Shown here: positions 3,661-15,154 of the stretch, piece by piece
How the letters are laid out: each line of letters begins with the position of its first letter
Position numbering within the stretch: the stretch's first letter is position 1
IMG/VR virus record: IMGVR_UViG_3300042398_000001
Coordinates: 1-21,366 of that record
DNA length: 21,366 nt
Source: a virus
Strand: one strand, 5' to 3'
Translations under genes and position numbers: made by a program
Notes under the pieces: model-generated
The model's input: the letters and a program-made list of their open reading frames with translations, nothing else
What the model was told of the DNA's origin: nothing
The model's database searches: none

Positions 3661-4290
3661 ATGCACCACTTGGTCTATGTCACTACAAATATAGAGAATG
3701 GAAAGTTCTATATTGGAAAACATAGTACTAAGAACTTGAACGACAACTATTGTGGTTCTGGCGTTTGGGTGCTAAGAGCAAAGAAAGCAAAAAAGAAACT
3801 TTTTACTAGAGTAGTTAAATCTTGTCAAACTGAGGAAGAAGCATATAAGCAAGAGTATGAAATTATTGTTGCTGCAAAAGAATGTTGGCCTGACTTGTGT
3901 ATGAATATGTCTGATGGTGGAGTTGGCTTTTCTATCTCATATCCAAAGCAAAGGCATGGTGAGTTTGCTCCTATGTATGGAAAAAAACATACAGAGGAAG
4001 TTAAAAAGAAACTTGCTGAAGTAATGGCATATCGTGCTGGTGAAAACCATCATATGTATGGCAAAAAGCACAATGATGACACTCGAAAAAAGATGTCTAA
4101 AACACATTTAAAAATTGGTCATTTGCGTGGCAAAAAAGTAAAATGTTTAACTAATGGAGTTATTTATGGTTCTCTATCAGAAGCTGCTAGAAATGTAGCC
4201 ATAAATTCAAAAGCAAGAAGCAATATCAGACTCGCTATCAAACAAGGGTCTATTGCTTATGGTCACAAATGGTCTTTTATTGAGGAATAA
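3661..4290 (+). CDS. GIY-YIG homing endonuclease with NUMOD3 repeats
   Basis: A 209-residue protein of the phage Seg-like GIY-YIG type. The N-terminal nuclease fold is marked by VYV (residues 5-7) and YIG (17-19) in the FYIGKHST context, with the conserved YCGSG at 30-34. Two NUMOD3 DNA-binding motifs follow: MYGKKHTEEVKKK at 105-117 and MYGKKHNDDTRKK at 132-144. The C-terminus (about 160-200, containing GVIYGSLSEAARNVA) resembles NUMOD1. Such enzymes cut intronless alleles and spread themselves; this one is free-standing, between a virion gene and the tail fibre, with its own AAGGA ribosome site. It is lysine-rich and more AT-rich than its neighbours, consistent with separate acquisition. 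No split gene is seen around it. Confidence 0.9.
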   Translation: MHHLVYVTTNIENGKFYIGKHSTKNLNDNYCGSGVWVLRAKKAKKKLFTRVVKSCQTEEEAYKQEYEIIVAAKECWPDLCMNMSDGGVGFSISYPKQRHGEFAPMYGKKHTEEVKKKLAEVMAYRAGENHHMYGKKHNDDTRKKMSKTHLKIGHLRGKKVKCLTNGVIYGSLSEAARNVAINSKARSNIRLAIKQGSIAYGHKWSFIEE

Positions 4291-5668: not shown

Positions 5669-6190
5669 ATGACCATCCTGACACAAGAAGAAGCACACCG
5701 CTTGTTTGAGTACAAGGATGGTGAGTTGTTTTGGAAAGAACAATCAGTATCTAACTTTCCAACACCTTCATACCATAAAAGATGGACAACAAGATTTTTA
5801 AACAAAAAAGCAGGTTCTTGTGCTGGAATTTATGTAAATATTTCCATAAAAGGCGCACGACATCAAGCGCATAGAATTATTTTTCTAATGCACCATGGGT
5901 ATTTGCCAAAGATTGTTGACCATATCAATGGGAAAACTCAAGACAATAGAATTGAAAATTTAAGAGCCGCAACACATACTGAAAATTTAAGGAATTGCAA
6001 AGTTCCTAAGACAAATACTTCAGGATATAAAAATGTTGTTTGGCATTCTCAAAGAAAAAAATGGAATGTTAAATTAACTATAAACCATAAAAATACATCT
6101 TTTGGTTTGTATGATGATATTGAACTTGCTGATCTTGTTGCTCAAGAAGCAAGAAGTAAATATTTTGGTTCTTTTGCTCGTAACTTTTAA
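5669..6190 (+). CDS. HNH endonuclease with AP2-type DNA-binding domain
   Basis: A 173-residue free-standing homing-type nuclease. The HNH_3 core spans about residues 65-110: AHRIIFLMHHG, then VDHINGKTQDNRIENLR, with His68, the DHIN residues 84-87 and Asn93 as likely metal/catalytic positions. The C-terminal part (about 115-170, NTSGYKNVVWHSQRKKW, then YDDIELADLVAQEARSK) is the AP2/ERF-like DNA-binding fold often fused to phage HNH enzymes. It lies directly after the tail fibre, with an AAGGAATAAT ribosome site. High Lys/Asn content and AT-rich codons differ from the fibre gene. It is a paralogue-type relative of the gene at 7871-8377. Confidence 0.9.
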   Translation: MTILTQEEAHRLFEYKDGELFWKEQSVSNFPTPSYHKRWTTRFLNKKAGSCAGIYVNISIKGARHQAHRIIFLMHHGYLPKIVDHINGKTQDNRIENLRAATHTENLRNCKVPKTNTSGYKNVVWHSQRKKWNVKLTINHKNTSFGLYDDIELADLVAQEARSKYFGSFARNF

Positions 6191-7841: not shown

Positions 7842-7870
7842 CTCTAACCTAAATGATGAAAGGACATCAA

Positions 7871-8377
7871 ATGGCTGAAATTAGTTTATCACGAGAGCGT
7901 TTGTGCGAGTTGCTTGAGGTAGATACCGAAAAAGGAATCTTTACTTGGCGAAACACAATGGGTGGAAAAGCACAAAAAGGTCAGCAAGCAGGTTCAAAGC
8001 AGAAAATTGGTTATGTTTTGATAAGGCTTGACCAGAAAGATTACTACGCACACAGGTTGATGTGGTTGTATGTTTATGGTGCAATACCACTATTACAGAT
8101 AGACCATATAAATCGAAACAAAGAAGATAACAGACCTAGCAATTTGAGGTTGGCAACACAAAAACAAAATAGTGAAAATTTGTTCAGACCAAAACAGAAT
8201 ACATCAGGGTTTCGAGGTGTTCGGTTTGAGGCTAGGCTGAAGTCAAAACCTTGGTCTGCTTGTATAACAAACAATTACAAACAGAAGCATTTAGGATATT
8301 ACGCAACAATGGAAGAAGCGATTATTGCAAGACAAGCTGCTGAAGATGCACTTTTCACACATCACATAAGACAATGA
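7871..8377 (+). CDS. HNH endonuclease with AP2-type DNA-binding domain (second copy type)
   Basis: A 168-residue nuclease. I start at ATG 7871 (MAEISLSRERLC) because AAAGGA precedes it at 7 nt; the in-frame ATG at 7853 has no ribosome site. HNH_3 core: AHRLMWLYVYG (about 60-70), IDHINRNKEDNRPSNLR (about 77-93), with His61, Asp78-His79 and Asn81 as key positions. AP2-like domain from about 109 (QNTSGFRGVRFEARLKSK, then GYYATMEEAIIARQAAED). It is the same architecture as the gene at 5669-6190 but diverged throughout. It interrupts the lysis-region operon; its stop overlaps the next ATG (ATGA), which keeps downstream translation coupled. Confidence 0.9.
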   Translation: MAEISLSRERLCELLEVDTEKGIFTWRNTMGGKAQKGQQAGSKQKIGYVLIRLDQKDYYAHRLMWLYVYGAIPLLQIDHINRNKEDNRPSNLRLATQKQNSENLFRPKQNTSGFRGVRFEARLKSKPWSACITNNYKQKHLGYYATMEEAIIARQAAEDALFTHHIRQ

Positions 8378-9049: not shown

Positions 9050-9543
9050 TGTTTGGCATACCACTACCTTGGGTTCTGGTTGTTCTTTGTATAACCTTGT
9101 TTGGTACATACCGAGGTGGATACCACTTTGGTTGGTCAGACAGGGACAAAGAGATGCAGATTGAGATTGCTCGAAAGAATGAGGAATCTCGTCAAACTGA
9201 ACAGAAACTCAACGAACAACTAAACACTACTGCTGGTAAACTTTTGGAGGTTAACAATGTTGTCACTCAGAAACAGTCTGCTCTTGATCGTGCTATTAGG
9301 GATGGTAGGGTGCGCCTCCCCTCCCCAAGTTGTGTACAAGCCCCCACAAGTACCCCCATTGCCCCCACAAATCCAGAAACAACCAGTCAACCTGACAGAC
9401 CGACTGACACAGCTTCTGATGCCGAAAGAGCAACCCTCCAAGCCATCGCAGAAATAGTGGCGCAGGGAGATCGGAATACTGCTGCACTCAATGCGTGTGT
9501 GGATGCTTACGATAATGTTAGGAATTTGTTAAATGGTAAATAA
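9049..9543 (+). CDS. Inner-membrane spanin subunit (Rz-like)
   Basis: A 164-residue i-spanin candidate: one N-terminal membrane anchor (about residues 6-22, LPWVLVVLCITLFGTY), then a periplasmic helical/coiled-coil domain (DRDKEMQIEIARKNEESRQT ...), a Pro/Thr-rich stretch and a terminal helix. It works with the outer-membrane lipoprotein encoded inside it (9257-9457) to fuse the two membranes at the last step of Gram-negative lysis. The Pro/Thr-rich part (about 88-125) is exactly where the nested reading frame overlaps, a usual consequence of overprinting. The stop lies 11 nt inside the endolysin gene. Confidence 0.85.
   Translation: MFGIPLPWVLVVLCITLFGTYRGGYHFGWSDRDKEMQIEIARKNEESRQTEQKLNEQLNTTAGKLLEVNNVVTQKQSALDRAIRDGRVRLPSPSCVQAPTSTPIAPTNPETTSQPDRPTDTASDAERATLQAIAEIVAQGDRNTAALNACVDAYDNVRNLLNGK
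9257..9457 (+). CDS. Outer-membrane spanin lipoprotein (Rz1-like), nested in the i-spanin gene
   Basis: A 66-residue ORF wholly inside 9049-9543 in the +1 frame. Signal peptide MLSLRNSLLLIVLLGMVGC with lipobox ending at Cys19, then a proline-rich mature protein (PPQVVYKPPQVPPLPPQIQ), the hallmark of Rz1 proteins. A strong GGAGG at 9246-9250 lies 6 nt before the ATG, so translation is well supported. Fully embedded Rz1 genes are known from lambda. Confidence 0.88.
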   Translation: MLSLRNSLLLIVLLGMVGCASPPQVVYKPPQVPPLPPQIQKQPVNLTDRLTQLLMPKEQPSKPSQK

Positions 9544-10129
9544 AACTCAACTAGAGCAACTTCACATTGGTGAACAATGGGTAGATGCGTTAAACGAGAC
9601 ATTCCAGAGATTTGGGATTATTACTCCTGCTCAACAAGCATCATTTATTGGTCAATGTGGGCATGAGTGTGGTAACTTTAAAGTTCTTGAGGAGAACTTA
9701 AACTATCGTGCTGAGACTTTGATGAAGTTGTGGCCTAAACGCTTTGATGCTGCCAAAGCACAAGCGTGTCAGCGTAATCCACGACTTATTGCCAATATTG
9801 TTTACTCTAGTCGTATGGGAAACAGAGATGAAGCGTCTGGGGATGGTTATCGTTTCAGGGGTCGCGGGTGTATTCAATTGACGGGTCACGCTAACTACTA
9901 TCACGCAGGTATTGCCTGTGGTGAGGACTTTGTGATGAATCCTGATCTAGTAGCTACACCTCGCTACGCTGCAATGACTGCTGGATGGTTCTGGAATACC
10001 CACAAGCTAAACCAATACGCTGATGCCAGAGACTATGTAACCATGACTAAAAAGATCAATGGCGGAACAATAGGTTTAGCTGATAGGCAGAAACATATTG
10101 CTCACGCATTAGAAGTGCTTATTGCTTAG
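9533..10129 (+). CDS. GH19 chitinase-like endolysin
   Basis: A 198-residue peptidoglycan hydrolase of glycoside hydrolase family 19. Signature segments: FIGQCGHECGNF with the likely catalytic acid Glu45, MGNRDEASGDGYRFRGRG with second Glu100, and IQLTGHANYY (about 114-123). No signal peptide or membrane anchor, so it needs a holin for access to the wall. The ATG lies 11 nt before the i-spanin stop. The gene ends convergently with the leftward HTH gene: the two coding regions overlap by 11 nt (10119-10129), and no terminator is visible between them. Confidence 0.93.
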   Translation: MVNKTQLEQLHIGEQWVDALNETFQRFGIITPAQQASFIGQCGHECGNFKVLEENLNYRAETLMKLWPKRFDAAKAQACQRNPRLIANIVYSSRMGNRDEASGDGYRFRGRGCIQLTGHANYYHAGIACGEDFVMNPDLVATPRYAAMTAGWFWNTHKLNQYADARDYVTMTKKINGGTIGLADRQKHIAHALEVLIA

Positions 10130-10479: not shown

Positions 10480-10725
10480 TTAAAACGGCATTGAATCGTC
10501 AAATTCTTCTTTAACCTTTTTCTTAGGTTGCAAAGAAGCGTCTGCGTTCTTGTTCTTGACAGACAGAGACATAAACTTCTGCCCATCCTTACTGACTTTA
10601 ATCCAAGCTGATAGCCAGTAGTCAATCCCATCTACGTTAATGCTTCCTTTGTAATCAGGAAATTTAGCATCGTCTTTTCGGTCGTTCTTAAATAACGAGC
10701 CTCGGTTGTTGTTGTCGTATTCCAT
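10480..10725 (-). CDS. SSB-like single-stranded DNA-binding protein (81 aa)
   Basis: An 81-residue protein with a compact beta-rich core (YKGSINVDGIDYWLSAWIKV, then GQKFMSLSVKNK) and a Lys/acidic tail ending DDSMPF at residues 76-81. That terminal acidic-Pro-Phe tip matches the partner-docking tail of bacterial SSBs (DDDIPF type). It is shorter than a full OB-fold SSB (about 110 residues before the tail), so I call it SSB-like. It is translationally coupled (TAATG) behind an ERF annealing protein, a common phage pairing for recombination. Confidence 0.7.
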   Translation of the reverse strand: MEYDNNNRGSLFKNDRKDDAKFPDYKGSINVDGIDYWLSAWIKVSKDGQKFMSLSVKNKNADASLQPKKKVKEEFDDSMPF

Positions 10726-11327
10726 TACTCTTTCGCTTTCTTTAATGCACTTCTTACTTTACTAGGAAGCAAAGTCCACAGGGCGATTTTTTGTTGATCG
10801 TCTAGGTTCTCTGCTTCCAACTTCACCCAAGCTGTCTTAGGTTCTTCTTTCTCACAGAGAGCAATTAAGTCCATTGCTAACTCTTTGAGATAAATCTGTT
10901 CATCCTCTGGGATGTTATCCATTGCACCCTGTGTAGGTGTGATGATTACTTCTTTGATCGGTGCAGAGGAGTCCAGAGCATCATGTTCAACGATCTCCAT
11001 TGCTGTTACCCAGAGGTAGCGTCTGGTGTAGGTTTCTACTGCGCCAAGATTCTGGATAGGATGGCAGCCTTTGAGATTAGCTTCTGCCATTGGGCTTGTG
11101 ATGATGATGTTAGTACCATCGTCTGTGTCTGTGATCGTCAGGCTTGCAATCTCTGAATCGTAGGAGACTACGCCACAAAGACCAACTTCATTAAAGATTG
11201 AATTGATCGTGGGGATAAAGTCACCGAGTTCAAAGTATGAGTAGCCAGCGAACTTATTGTGGCCTGACTTCTTGAGAGGTGCGTTTTGCAACATGATTCG
11301 TGCTTGCATTAACTTCTTATGTACCAT
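10725..11327 (-). CDS. erf: ERF-family single-strand annealing recombinase
   Basis: A 200-residue protein with the ERF family pattern: N-terminal helix (LMQARIMLQNAPLKKSG), YSYFELGDFIPTINSIF (about 29-45), and the most conserved stretch NLGAVETYTRRYLW (about 93-106) followed by EIVEHDALD. ERF proteins anneal complementary ssDNA during phage recombination and genome circularisation. The C-terminal 75 residues are acidic and helical, as expected. It overlaps the upstream gene by 11 nt and is followed by the SSB-like gene, its usual partner. Confidence 0.9.
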   Translation of the reverse strand: MVHKKLMQARIMLQNAPLKKSGHNKFAGYSYFELGDFIPTINSIFNEVGLCGVVSYDSEIASLTITDTDDGTNIIITSPMAEANLKGCHPIQNLGAVETYTRRYLWVTAMEIVEHDALDSSAPIKEVIITPTQGAMDNIPEDEQIYLKELAMDLIALCEKEEPKTAWVKLEAENLDDQQKIALWTLLPSKVRSALKKAKE

Positions 11328-13448: not shown

Positions 13449-13643
13449 ATGCCAATTTATCTACCTGCAGAATATGAAACAACAGTCGCTGGAACAGGCG
13501 ATGGTTTTGTAAGTTTTACCCAAAAAAGATTAGATGGTGAAGAAATGGTTATGTTCTTGTCACTACATCAATTTCAAACAATTTTTAACCATGAAAAAAC
13601 AATTGTTCGTGAAGCATTAAGTGGAAAGGAAGGCGATGAATGA
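13449..13643 (+). CDS. Small hypothetical protein (64 aa)
   Basis: A 64-residue, acidic protein (MPIYLPAEYETTVAGTGDGF...) with a likely beta-sheet N-terminal half (GFVSFTQKRLDGEEMVMFLS) and a helical C-terminus. AAGGAAATAAAA precedes its ATG. Its 3' end overlaps the methyltransferase start by 8 nt, so all three reading frames are in use near 13636-13643. Function unknown. Confidence 0.65.
   Translation: MPIYLPAEYETTVAGTGDGFVSFTQKRLDGEEMVMFLSLHQFQTIFNHEKTIVREALSGKEGDE
13625..13642 (+). promoter_or_regulatory. Shared ribosome site for two overlapping starts
   Basis: AAGGAAGG (13626-13633) precedes ATGAATG. It is 5 nt (from AGGA) before dcm ATG 13636 and 6-9 nt before ATG 13640 in the other frame, so both starts lie within workable Shine-Dalgarno distance. 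Confidence 0.6.
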
Positions 13644-14436
13644 GTTGGCATTATTTGCGGGGGGGGGGGGAGGAATCCTTGCAGGACATTTGCTCGGATG
13701 GAGAACTGTGTGTGCCGTTGAAATCGAAGATTACCCACGCAGAGTTTTACTGCAACGGCAAGCTGATGGATTCTTACCTAGATTCCCTATCTGGGATGAC
13801 ATTTGTACATTCGATGGGAAACCTTGGAGAGGAAAAATCGATGTTGTGTCTGGAGGATTCCCATGCCAAGACATTAGTGCTGCAGGAAAAGGCGCAGGAC
13901 TTGATGGAGAAAGATCAGGACTCTGGGGAGAAATGGCAAGGGTCATTTACGAAGTACAGCCCAGATTCGTGTTCGTGGAAAACTCACCAATGCTCACTTC
14001 TAGGGGACTTGGAACAGTTCTCGGAGACTTGGCCACAATGGGGTTTGATGCGAGATGGGGAGTGTTGGGAGCATCAGACGTTGGAGCGAAGCATGAAAGG
14101 AAACGAATCTGGATTGTTGCCAGACAACCAAAATTTCTTTCACACGCCCAACACAACAGGATTAGATGGTGGGAGCAACAGCAGAAAAGCATTGAAGAAA
14201 AGGCTTTCAACATGGCCAACACCAACGACTCCAACTGGAGGCGGGAACATAGGCGGTTCTGGAGCGTACAAAAATGCAATAAAAAATGGGACTCACATTC
14301 CACATTCAATCAACCCGAACCTATACGAATGGTTGATGGGGTGGCCAATAGGGTGGACAGACTTAAAGCCATTGGAAATGGACAAGTACCACTTTGTGCA
14401 GCAACAGCATGGAGAATTTTAAGTGAGCCACTATGA
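13636..14436 (+). CDS. dcm: DNA cytosine-C5 methyltransferase (Dcm-type)
   Basis: A 266-residue enzyme that transfers a methyl group from S-adenosylmethionine to cytosine C5, probably protecting phage DNA. Motif I: LFAGGGGGILAGHLLGW (5-22); motif IV with the catalytic Cys: GGFPCQDIS (73-81, Cys77); motif VI: FVENSP (113-118); motif VIII: KHERKRIWIVA (152-162); motif X: RLKAIGNGQVPLCAATAW (242-259). The variable target-recognition region between VIII and X is short (about 80 residues). Start is ATG 13636 (MNELALFAGG), 5 nt after AAGGA; the GTG at 13621 is unlikely. Motif I is encoded across twelve consecutive G, so a one-base slip would destroy it. Most of the gene is overlapped by another long ORF. 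Confidence 0.92.
   Translation: MNELALFAGGGGGILAGHLLGWRTVCAVEIEDYPRRVLLQRQADGFLPRFPIWDDICTFDGKPWRGKIDVVSGGFPCQDISAAGKGAGLDGERSGLWGEMARVIYEVQPRFVFVENSPMLTSRGLGTVLGDLATMGFDARWGVLGASDVGAKHERKRIWIVARQPKFLSHAQHNRIRWWEQQQKSIEEKAFNMANTNDSNWRREHRRFWSVQKCNKKWDSHSTFNQPEPIRMVDGVANRVDRLKAIGNGQVPLCAATAWRILSEPL
13640..14422 (+). CDS. Overprinted protein inside dcm, +1 frame (260 aa)
   Basis: A 260-codon ORF starting 4 nt after the dcm ATG (ATGAATG) and sharing its ribosome site. It is stop-free for 783 nt. It reads like a phage protein, not a random shadow: WHYLRGGGEESLQDICSDGE, CVPLKSK then FYCNG then SYLDSLSG (25-52), AKTLVLQEKAQDL, KWQGSFTKYSPDSCSWKTHQ (98-117), FSETWPQWGLMRDGECWE (127-144), SGLLP, WPTPTTPTGGG (192-202) and NPNLYEWLMGWPIGWTDLKP (225-244) then LEMDKYH. 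From memory these segments recur in phage proteins annotated as methyltransferase-associated. It lacks the Dcm motifs, so it is not itself a methylase; a target-recognition or accessory role is a guess. Its TAA is directly followed by the GTG of a 39-residue gene. Confidence 0.62.
   Translation: MSWHYLRGGGEESLQDICSDGELCVPLKSKITHAEFYCNGKLMDSYLDSLSGMTFVHSMGNLGEEKSMLCLEDSHAKTLVLQEKAQDLMEKDQDSGEKWQGSFTKYSPDSCSWKTHQCSLLGDLEQFSETWPQWGLMRDGECWEHQTLERSMKGNESGLLPDNQNFFHTPNTTGLDGGSNSRKALKKRLSTWPTPTTPTGGGNIGGSGAYKNAIKNGTHIPHSINPNLYEWLMGWPIGWTDLKPLEMDKYHFVQQQHGEF
13659..13670 (+). repeat. Homopolymer of twelve G
   Basis: G12 between C13658 and A13671, coding Gly-Gly-Gly-Gly of dcm motif I, whose usual form is FAGAGGGIL-like with an Ala. 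Loss of one G would join the dcm start to the second frame; gain of one G would join the second start to the dcm frame. It may be a phase-variation or slippage site, or an assembly error. Confidence 0.95.
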
Positions 14437-14542: not shown

Positions 14543-14729
14543 AAACCCAAACGATAGGGTAATCCTTGAGCAAGCAGAAGCAAGGGAACTCTATCGCACT
14601 TGGGAGACAAACAAAGATAGAGACTTTGTGCGTGGTCGGCTAGAGAGAGCAGAACGAATTTATGGCTCTGGTGCTAGAGACAGGATTCGTACTTATATGG
14701 CGCAAATAAAGGATGGGACACTTGAATGA
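14517..14729 (+). CDS. Conserved-type small phage protein (70 aa), GTG start
   Basis: A 70-residue basic, helical protein: MTYSRKTIENPNDRVILEQA, YRTWETNKDRDFVRGRLERA, RIYGSGARDRIRTYMAQIKD. Starts at GTG 14517 inside the upstream ORF, with GGAATT upstream; the next ATG for RusA overlaps its stop (ATGA). A common companion of RusA in phage early regions; function unknown. Confidence 0.7.
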   Translation: MTYSRKTIENPNDRVILEQAEARELYRTWETNKDRDFVRGRLERAERIYGSGARDRIRTYMAQIKDGTLE

Positions 14730-15154
14730 CATTTATTGTAAATTTCACAGTAGAAGGTAATCCTGTTGGCAAACAAAGAGCAAGGTATGTCAAACGTGGA
14801 AACTTTGTTTCTGCTTACACCCCTGAGAAAACCAGAACTTACGAATCTTTGATTAAAGATGCAGCCATCAAAGCGATGGGAAGTTCCGAGCCACTAGAAA
14901 CCCCTATAACGCTTTACTTGTACATCAGAGTACCAATTCCTAAGTCACACTCTAAAAAACGCATAGAGGCTTGTTTAAATGGCTCTGAACAACCAATTAA
15001 GAAGCCTGATGCCTCCAACATCCTGAAAAGCGTAGAAGATGGCATGAATTCTGTGGTTTACAAAGATGATTCGCAGATCGTCAATATCCATGTAACCAAG
15101 GTTTATTCAAGCCAAGCTGGTGTAGATATTTGCGTTAAGGAGTGTCTTGAATGA
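14726..15154 (+). CDS. rusA: RusA-family Holliday junction resolvase
   Basis: A 142-residue metal-dependent endonuclease that resolves four-way junctions during phage recombination and replication. Signatures: VEGNPVGKQRAR (9-20), RVPIPKSHS (68-76), KPDASNILKSVEDGMNSV (93-110) and YKDDSQIV (112-119). Acidic residues Asp95, Asp105, Asp114 and Asp115 are present. The usual D-x-D-N of RusA is D-A-S-N here: Ser97 stands where the second Asp is normal, which may alter activity or reflect a subfamily. Coupled to neighbours by ATGA overlaps on both sides. Confidence 0.88.
   Translation: MTFIVNFTVEGNPVGKQRARYVKRGNFVSAYTPEKTRTYESLIKDAAIKAMGSSEPLETPITLYLYIRVPIPKSHSKKRIEACLNGSEQPIKKPDASNILKSVEDGMNSVVYKDDSQIVNIHVTKVYSSQAGVDICVKECLE

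Follow-up and report, generated by a model that had tools for sequence, protein, structure and literature searches.

Does a phage gene for a Dcm-type cytosine methyltransferase encode one protein or two? The question is raised by a locus in the window analysed here, which comprises positions 1 to 21,366 of the virus record IMGVR_UViG_3300042398_000001 and in which dcm and a second frame in the +1 register (alt) occupy nearly the same DNA. The dcm-frame product matches PF00145 (E=2.6e-29, residues 4-217) and carries the SAM-binding and catalytic motifs I, IV (PC), VI (EN), VIII (RxR), and X (GN), with P76-C77, E115-N116, R155/R157, and G247-N248 invariant among 97 relatives. The target-recognition region (TRD) and motif IX are absent from this frame and present in the +1 frame, and a non-conserved linker replaces the small domain in the dcm-encoded chain, alpha. 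The alt product, beta, is proposed to be the small domain (target recognition and motif IX), preceded by an N-terminal part that is written over motifs I-VIII. The features of the locus are:

13627..13643, + strand: start region, with the Shine-Dalgarno-like AGGAAGG, dcm ATG, TGA, and alt ATG
13636..14436, + strand: alpha subunit, dcm frame; 266 aa, PF00145 m5C methyltransferase large domain, motifs I-VIII and X
13640..14422, + strand: proposed beta subunit, alt (+1) frame; 260 aa, ATG start
13659..13670, + strand: G12 homopolymer within motif I; 10-15 long in relatives
13852..13872, + strand: motif IV GGFPCQD with catalytic Cys77, dcm frame; from invariant columns and knowledge of the PF00145 family
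13978..13986, + strand: motif VI ENS, dcm frame; from invariant columns
14098..14124, + strand: motif VIII RKRIWIVA region, dcm frame; final segment ahead of the switch in selected frame
14125..14305, + strand: target-recognition region, alt frame, with PTP modules and AYKNAIKNGTHIPHSI; from codon-position divergence in gapless pairs
14309..14377, + strand: motif IX NPNLYEWLMGWPIGWTDL, alt frame; from altC profile matches to actinophage motif IX
14359..14391, + strand: motif X RLKAIGNGQVP, dcm frame; dcm position 3 diverges fastest, confident helix at 252-263

The genomic setting is that of an ordinary phage, with a RusA resolvase (14726-15154), an ERF recombinase (10725-11327, minus strand), and a GH19 (chitinase-like) probable endolysin (9533-10129) as neighbours. 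The same 21-kb contig holds three homing-type endonuclease genes, one GIY-YIG/NUMOD3 and two HNH_3 (3661-4290, 5669-6190, and 7853-8377). No restriction gene was recognised near dcm.

The two starts lie only 4 nt apart (dcm ATG at 13636, alt ATG at 13640), downstream of a single Shine-Dalgarno-like AGGAAGG (13627-13633). The alt ATG also overlaps, as ATGA, the TGA stop (13641-13643) of an upstream 64-aa ORF (13449-13643). Its position 4 nt past the dcm start recurs in 188 of 199 loci. The dcm codon at the start position varies (ATG, GTG, TTG, TTA, or CTT), and those TTA and CTT loci that were read have an in-frame dcm start further upstream. The second dcm codon, an Asn codon that supplies the alt ATG, is AAT in 186 cases and AAC in none, whereas AAT makes up only 45% of the Asn codons elsewhere in these genes.

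Selection on the +1 frame

The +1 register puts a dcm wobble base in the middle of every alt codon, so alt would be nearly free to drift unless selected. The window dcm has two +1 stops, one abutting the alt ATG upstream and the other being alt's own, against a mean of 6.8 in synonymous shuffles that preserve the dcm protein and its codon usage (p<0.002); its +2 frame has 18. The initial annotation had reported two long nested genes here and had put the chance of so long an open frame at (61/64)^260. That estimate is too simple, yet its conclusion that chance is not responsible stands in the shuffles, and the two nested genes themselves are confirmed, both under selection.

Among 106 distinct loci with Dcm identities of 31-100%, alt is open nearly end to end in almost all, and the +2 frame has about 10-25 stops. 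Stops in alt are confined to codon 0, before the alt ATG, and to the extreme dcm end, except in a few distant members and in homopolymer-shifted loci. The distant members have stops within the first ~40 alt codons, and beta must therefore start later in them. The first 80 loci were collected with a Dcm query alone and are thus unselected for an open alt, and the infrequency of stops in relatives argues against alt as a shadow of dcm.

Nor is synonymous variation in dcm normal. Four-fold-site divergence in dcm and in flanking genes is 5.6% versus 22.8% at amino acid identities of 0.95-1, 11% versus 28% at 0.90-0.95, and 16% versus 40% at 0.85-0.90, so that synonymous change in dcm is 2-4x below that in flanking genes of the same loci (80-98% protein identity). 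With a profile of the alt core, the real sequence outscores all 60 synonymous dcm shuffles in 99% of 167 viral loci, a figure that, like the other percentages, is no exact probability because related-sequence pairs are non-independent, a point partly answered by a bacterial replicate and by same-genome controls. In the replicate, nearly all bacterial-genome loci, which had been left out of profile building, also exceed their shuffles. In the controls, ordinary m5C methyltransferases encoded by these bacterial genomes (L359-L361, L363, L367, L370, L373, L374, L384, and L385) score like their own shuffles (z about 0). From the open frame, the synonymous constraint, the excess over shuffles, and the null same-genome controls, all comparisons of sequence, it follows that alt is a selected reading frame specific to one Dcm clade.

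Searches with alt gave no match in Pfam or NCBIfam and nothing significant among PDB sequences. The frame matches phrog_1008, annotated as DNA methyltransferase (E=1.4e-19, residues 62-198), as well as phrog_16143, phrog_26627, and phrog_35493. Three of its segments (WPQWGLMRDGECWE, WPTPTTPTG, and YEWLMGWPIGWTDLKP) had been likened to methyltransferase-associated phage proteins, and they do have matches in phage families whose annotation is DNA methyltransferase or unknown. At every inspected locus alt lies in the +1 frame of dcm, frame-shifted copies excepted.

Division of the methyltransferase motifs between two frames

The rates at which codon positions diverge reveal where each frame is selected. 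Over dcm codons 1-160 (motifs I-VIII), dcm position 3 diverges fastest. At codons 181-240 the fastest is dcm position 1, which is alt position 3 (0.343, 0.297, and 0.198, compared with 0.06-0.12 for the other positions), and at codons 241-260 (motif X) dcm position 3 leads again. Gapless pairs, which are free of alignment bias, give dcm1/dcm2/dcm3 divergences in the stretch from motif VIII to IX of 0.252/0.031/0.039 in viral contigs and 0.330/0.081/0.085 in bacterial genomes. In a four-class substitution test, dcm is neutral over codons 178-240 (dNN/dSN 1.00) and alt is constrained (dNN/dNS 0.50), while over dcm codons 101-160 both frames are constrained (0.25 for dcm, alt dNN/dNS 0.55). The evidence is mixed for dcm codons 1-60 (dNN/dNS 0.96, dSN/dSS 0.25), yet the alt start codon and N-terminal profile are conserved there; the latter exceeds all shuffles in 32 of 37 out-of-sample loci. 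Alt residues from about 59 to 98 seem nearly unconstrained.

The codon-position switches and the four-class test therefore assign the large domain (motifs I-VIII and X) to the dcm frame and the small-domain segment (TRD and motif IX, EWLMGWPIGWTDL) to alt. At the level of substitution patterns, the selected frame switches at the boundary of motif VIII and the TRD and back at that of motifs IX and X, with both frames under protein-level selection.

The identity of motif IX comes from actinophage relatives. A profile of the alt C-terminal part (altC, NPNLYEWLMGWPIGWTDL) matches the motif IX of Tweety gp72 (E 2.5e-5), which stands in one chain with motifs I-VIII and is followed by an in-frame motif X (LRIIGNGVVPQQ). 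In Vagabond, Backyardigan, and PrincessTrina it matches the beta chains, immediately ahead of motif X. In this split form, alpha (I-VIII) occupies one frame and beta, containing SETWP..G..RNG, PTP modules, EWMMG, and motif X, occupies the +1 frame. These actinophage beta chains match phrog_1008 at E=4e-56 to 9e-113. The initial annotation had suggested looking for homologues free of a dcm overlap, and none was found among the ~170 loci inspected; the actinophage beta chains come closest, yet they start inside the DNA of alpha motif VIII and overlap the alpha gene by their first ~70 codons. Single-chain, split, and fully interleaved forms are thus all present in living phages, and they may represent successive stages in that order. 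In the Streptomyces phage Darolandstone (L391, 1-1392), motifs I-VIII, IX, and X share one frame, and LPTP recognition-like modules lie in the +1 frame between VIII and IX, with a stop before IX.

Structure prediction is consistent with this division. In the AlphaFold model of alpha (97 relatives), pLDDT exceeds 90 over most of residues 1-160 and is about 92 for 251-266, whereas the segments 193-209 and 218-245 fall below 50. The model superposes on the large domain of M.HhaI, including motif X, over 189 residues (rmsd 2.3) and contains no folded small domain. Alpha is thus predicted to be a confident large domain with a disordered gap at the place of the small domain. Beta modelled alone (118 relatives) reaches only pLDDT 49.7 and pTM 0.19, with a short helix on EWLMGWP, a result that may reflect partner-dependent folding and equally a bad alignment.

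A proposed two-chain enzyme and its alternatives

These data very probably describe a two-subunit DNA (cytosine-5) methyltransferase produced from a single stretch of DNA. The dcm frame would yield alpha, the catalytic and SAM-binding large domain (I-VIII, X) whose small domain is replaced by a meaningless linker, and the +1 frame would yield, from the conserved ATG 4 nt downstream, beta, which would bring target recognition and motif IX together with an N-terminal part over motifs I-VIII. The adjacent starts would suit equimolar subunits and supply alpha and beta in similar amounts. With the TRD and motif IX missing from the alpha chain, the enzyme would be the two-chain unit and not alpha by itself: the subunits would come together on DNA, where beta would recognise the target and alpha would carry out the methyl transfer. 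Translation of both proteins, formation of the heterodimer, and its DNA specificity are presumed in this scheme. Since the enzyme is phage-borne and no restriction gene was recognised alongside, it would most likely protect phage DNA from host restriction.

The initial annotation had offered two origins for the overlap. A separate family that arose by overprinting dcm is not supported, as the C-terminal part of alt, where it is best conserved, corresponds to motif IX and the target-recognition region of the methyltransferase itself, read in a shifted frame, and only the alt N-terminal part overlies motifs I-VIII. The other suggestion, two genes locked together, comes nearer, yet they look like two subunits of one enzyme.

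Three other accounts of the locus have to be weighed against the two-chain enzyme. It is hardly credible that alt is an unmade shadow of dcm codon usage and protein conservation. Such a shadow would fit with gene callers mostly annotating one frame and with the failure to find a dcm-free alt homologue; against it, shuffles that keep the dcm protein and codon usage leave a +1 frame far less open and less alt-like than the real one, dcm is under synonymous constraint, the stretch between VIII and X bears an alt-frame third-position pattern, and the same-genome negative controls show no signal. In its purest form, a shadow of codon bias, it is ruled out by the shuffles and these controls. Little more can be said for the view that alt, perhaps an anti-restriction or regulatory factor, was overprinted on dcm without any relation to it and does no more than resemble part of a methyltransferase. 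The missing PDB sequence match, the unusual composition of alt, and the poor stand-alone model of beta would agree with this. What makes it very improbable is that the split beta chains carry motif IX and PTP modules in the reading frame of motif X, that Tweety gp72 unites these elements with I-VIII and X in a single chain, and that conservation of alt coincides exactly with the stretch in which the dcm frame no longer encodes a small domain of its own.

Less remote, and still unlikely, is a single chain that would arise through a pair of programmed frameshifts (+1 past motif VIII and back before motif X), with alt used mid-gene only. The selected frame does switch at exactly both places, and some relatives have homopolymer tracts near the first switch. 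Most loci, however, have no homopolymer near it, and alt possesses its own conserved ATG (AAT 186:0) and a conserved N-terminal part (32/37 out-of-sample loci). Selection on alt also reaches into dcm codons 101-160, ahead of the switch, and frameshifting would not need both frames open throughout, yet both are.

The G-tract in motif I reads G10, G11, G12, G14, or G15 at the same site in relatives, only multiples of three preserving both frames; it is possibly a slippage or phase-variation tract, or else a sequencing error. Six loci (L075, L130, L131, L133, L134, and L145) have poly-C near dcm nt 490 and one (L150) has poly-G near nt 504. In these seven, length shifts join dcm I-VIII to the alt C-terminus, or the alt N-terminus to motif X, making them natural frame-swapped copies. 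That interleaved frames and homopolymers (G10-15 within motif I; C10-13 or G9-13 where the recognition region begins) form a frame-swapping switch is a speculative and rather doubtful idea. If it were true, a one-base slip would yield a fused dcm-N/alt-C chain or uncouple the subunits, and the phage family could toggle methylation or alter how catalytic and recognition parts are joined.

Distribution and known two-chain methyltransferases

The dcm/alt overlap is found in phages, prophages, and contigs assigned to Pseudomonas, Acinetobacter, Vibrio, Salmonella, Stenotrophomonas, Microcystis, and Synechococcus, and also to Bacteroides, Mycobacterium, Desulforhopalus, Verrucomicrobia, Planctomycetes, Chloroflexi (Dictyobacter), and an archaeal MAG. 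In Leptospira it lies on plasmid records. A Streptococcus phage has the central part of alt alone, with many stops elsewhere. The arrangement thus appears widespread in phages and prophages and is mostly annotated as a single gene. No examined annotated record of the fully nested form has both frames annotated; in Vibrio phage 1.291.O (L158) and the Pseudomonas phages phPA-G (L357) and Shamal (L351), alt is annotated as a hypothetical protein and the dcm frame is unannotated. In the Mycobacterium phage Jinglebell (L355, 753-1458), the annotation places two hypothetical ORFs antisense to a dcm match that is itself split into two pieces, and in the E. coli PCP07014 prophage (L393, 1500-2261), a dcm relative that contains an internal stop is entered as a pseudogene.

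As gene callers retain one frame, the proposed specificity part is missing from the annotation of many phage 'Dcm' genes, and a phage 'Dcm' cloned with recoded codons would seem inactive if the enzyme is indeed split. Two interacting domains of one enzyme overwritten in two frames would be about the most demanding form of overlapping coding. Hundreds of natural examples could serve for testing the origin of overlapping genes and for predicting methylation targets from the correct frame.

M.EcoHK31I and M.EaeI are two-polypeptide m5C methyltransferases. The small chain of M.EcoHK31I, according to work by Lee et al. in 1995, is reportedly encoded within the large gene in an alternative frame, with both chains said to be needed for methylation. 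The dcm/alt locus likewise has its small chain in another frame of the large gene. In the literature covered, which included few subscription papers, no report of a nested gene in phage dcm was found beyond M.EcoHK31I/M.AquI, and no annotated copy of M.EcoHK31I was met in plasmids or E. coli genomes.

Among single-chain enzymes, M.HhaI and M.HaeIII are divided into a large and a small domain (PMC3404938). The alpha model fits their large domain; unlike the enzyme proposed here, they have the small domain in cis. Tweety gp72 shares the EWMMGWPAGW motif IX and the LLPTP element with alt but holds motifs I-X all in one chain. In the split actinophage enzymes (Vagabond gp6/gp5, Backyardigan gp74/gp73, and PrincessTrina gp81/gp82), alpha likewise has I-VIII and beta lies in the +1 frame; in contrast to the present locus, they have motif X on beta, their alpha stops after VIII, and the two genes share only a short overlap. 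M.AquI, also a naturally split m5C methyltransferase, is divided near the variable region into I-VIII and IX-X (PMC3404938), so that its beta holds both IX and X, whereas motif X stays on alpha here.

The closest parallel is M.EcoHK31I, whose larger chain has motifs I-VIII and X and whose smaller chain has motif IX, with the predicted TRD on the large chain (PMC3404938). Here too motifs I-VIII and X belong to the large chain and motif IX to the small chain only, and dcm/alt, which would work in the manner of M.EcoHK31I, may be viewed as a variant of that kind by motif layout. It differs in that the TRD is under selection on the small chain and that the system is phage-borne and very widely distributed, with no restriction gene recognised nearby. 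What dcm/alt adds to M.EcoHK31I is an overlap that runs the full length from starts 4 nt apart, evidence resolved by frame, and its spread.
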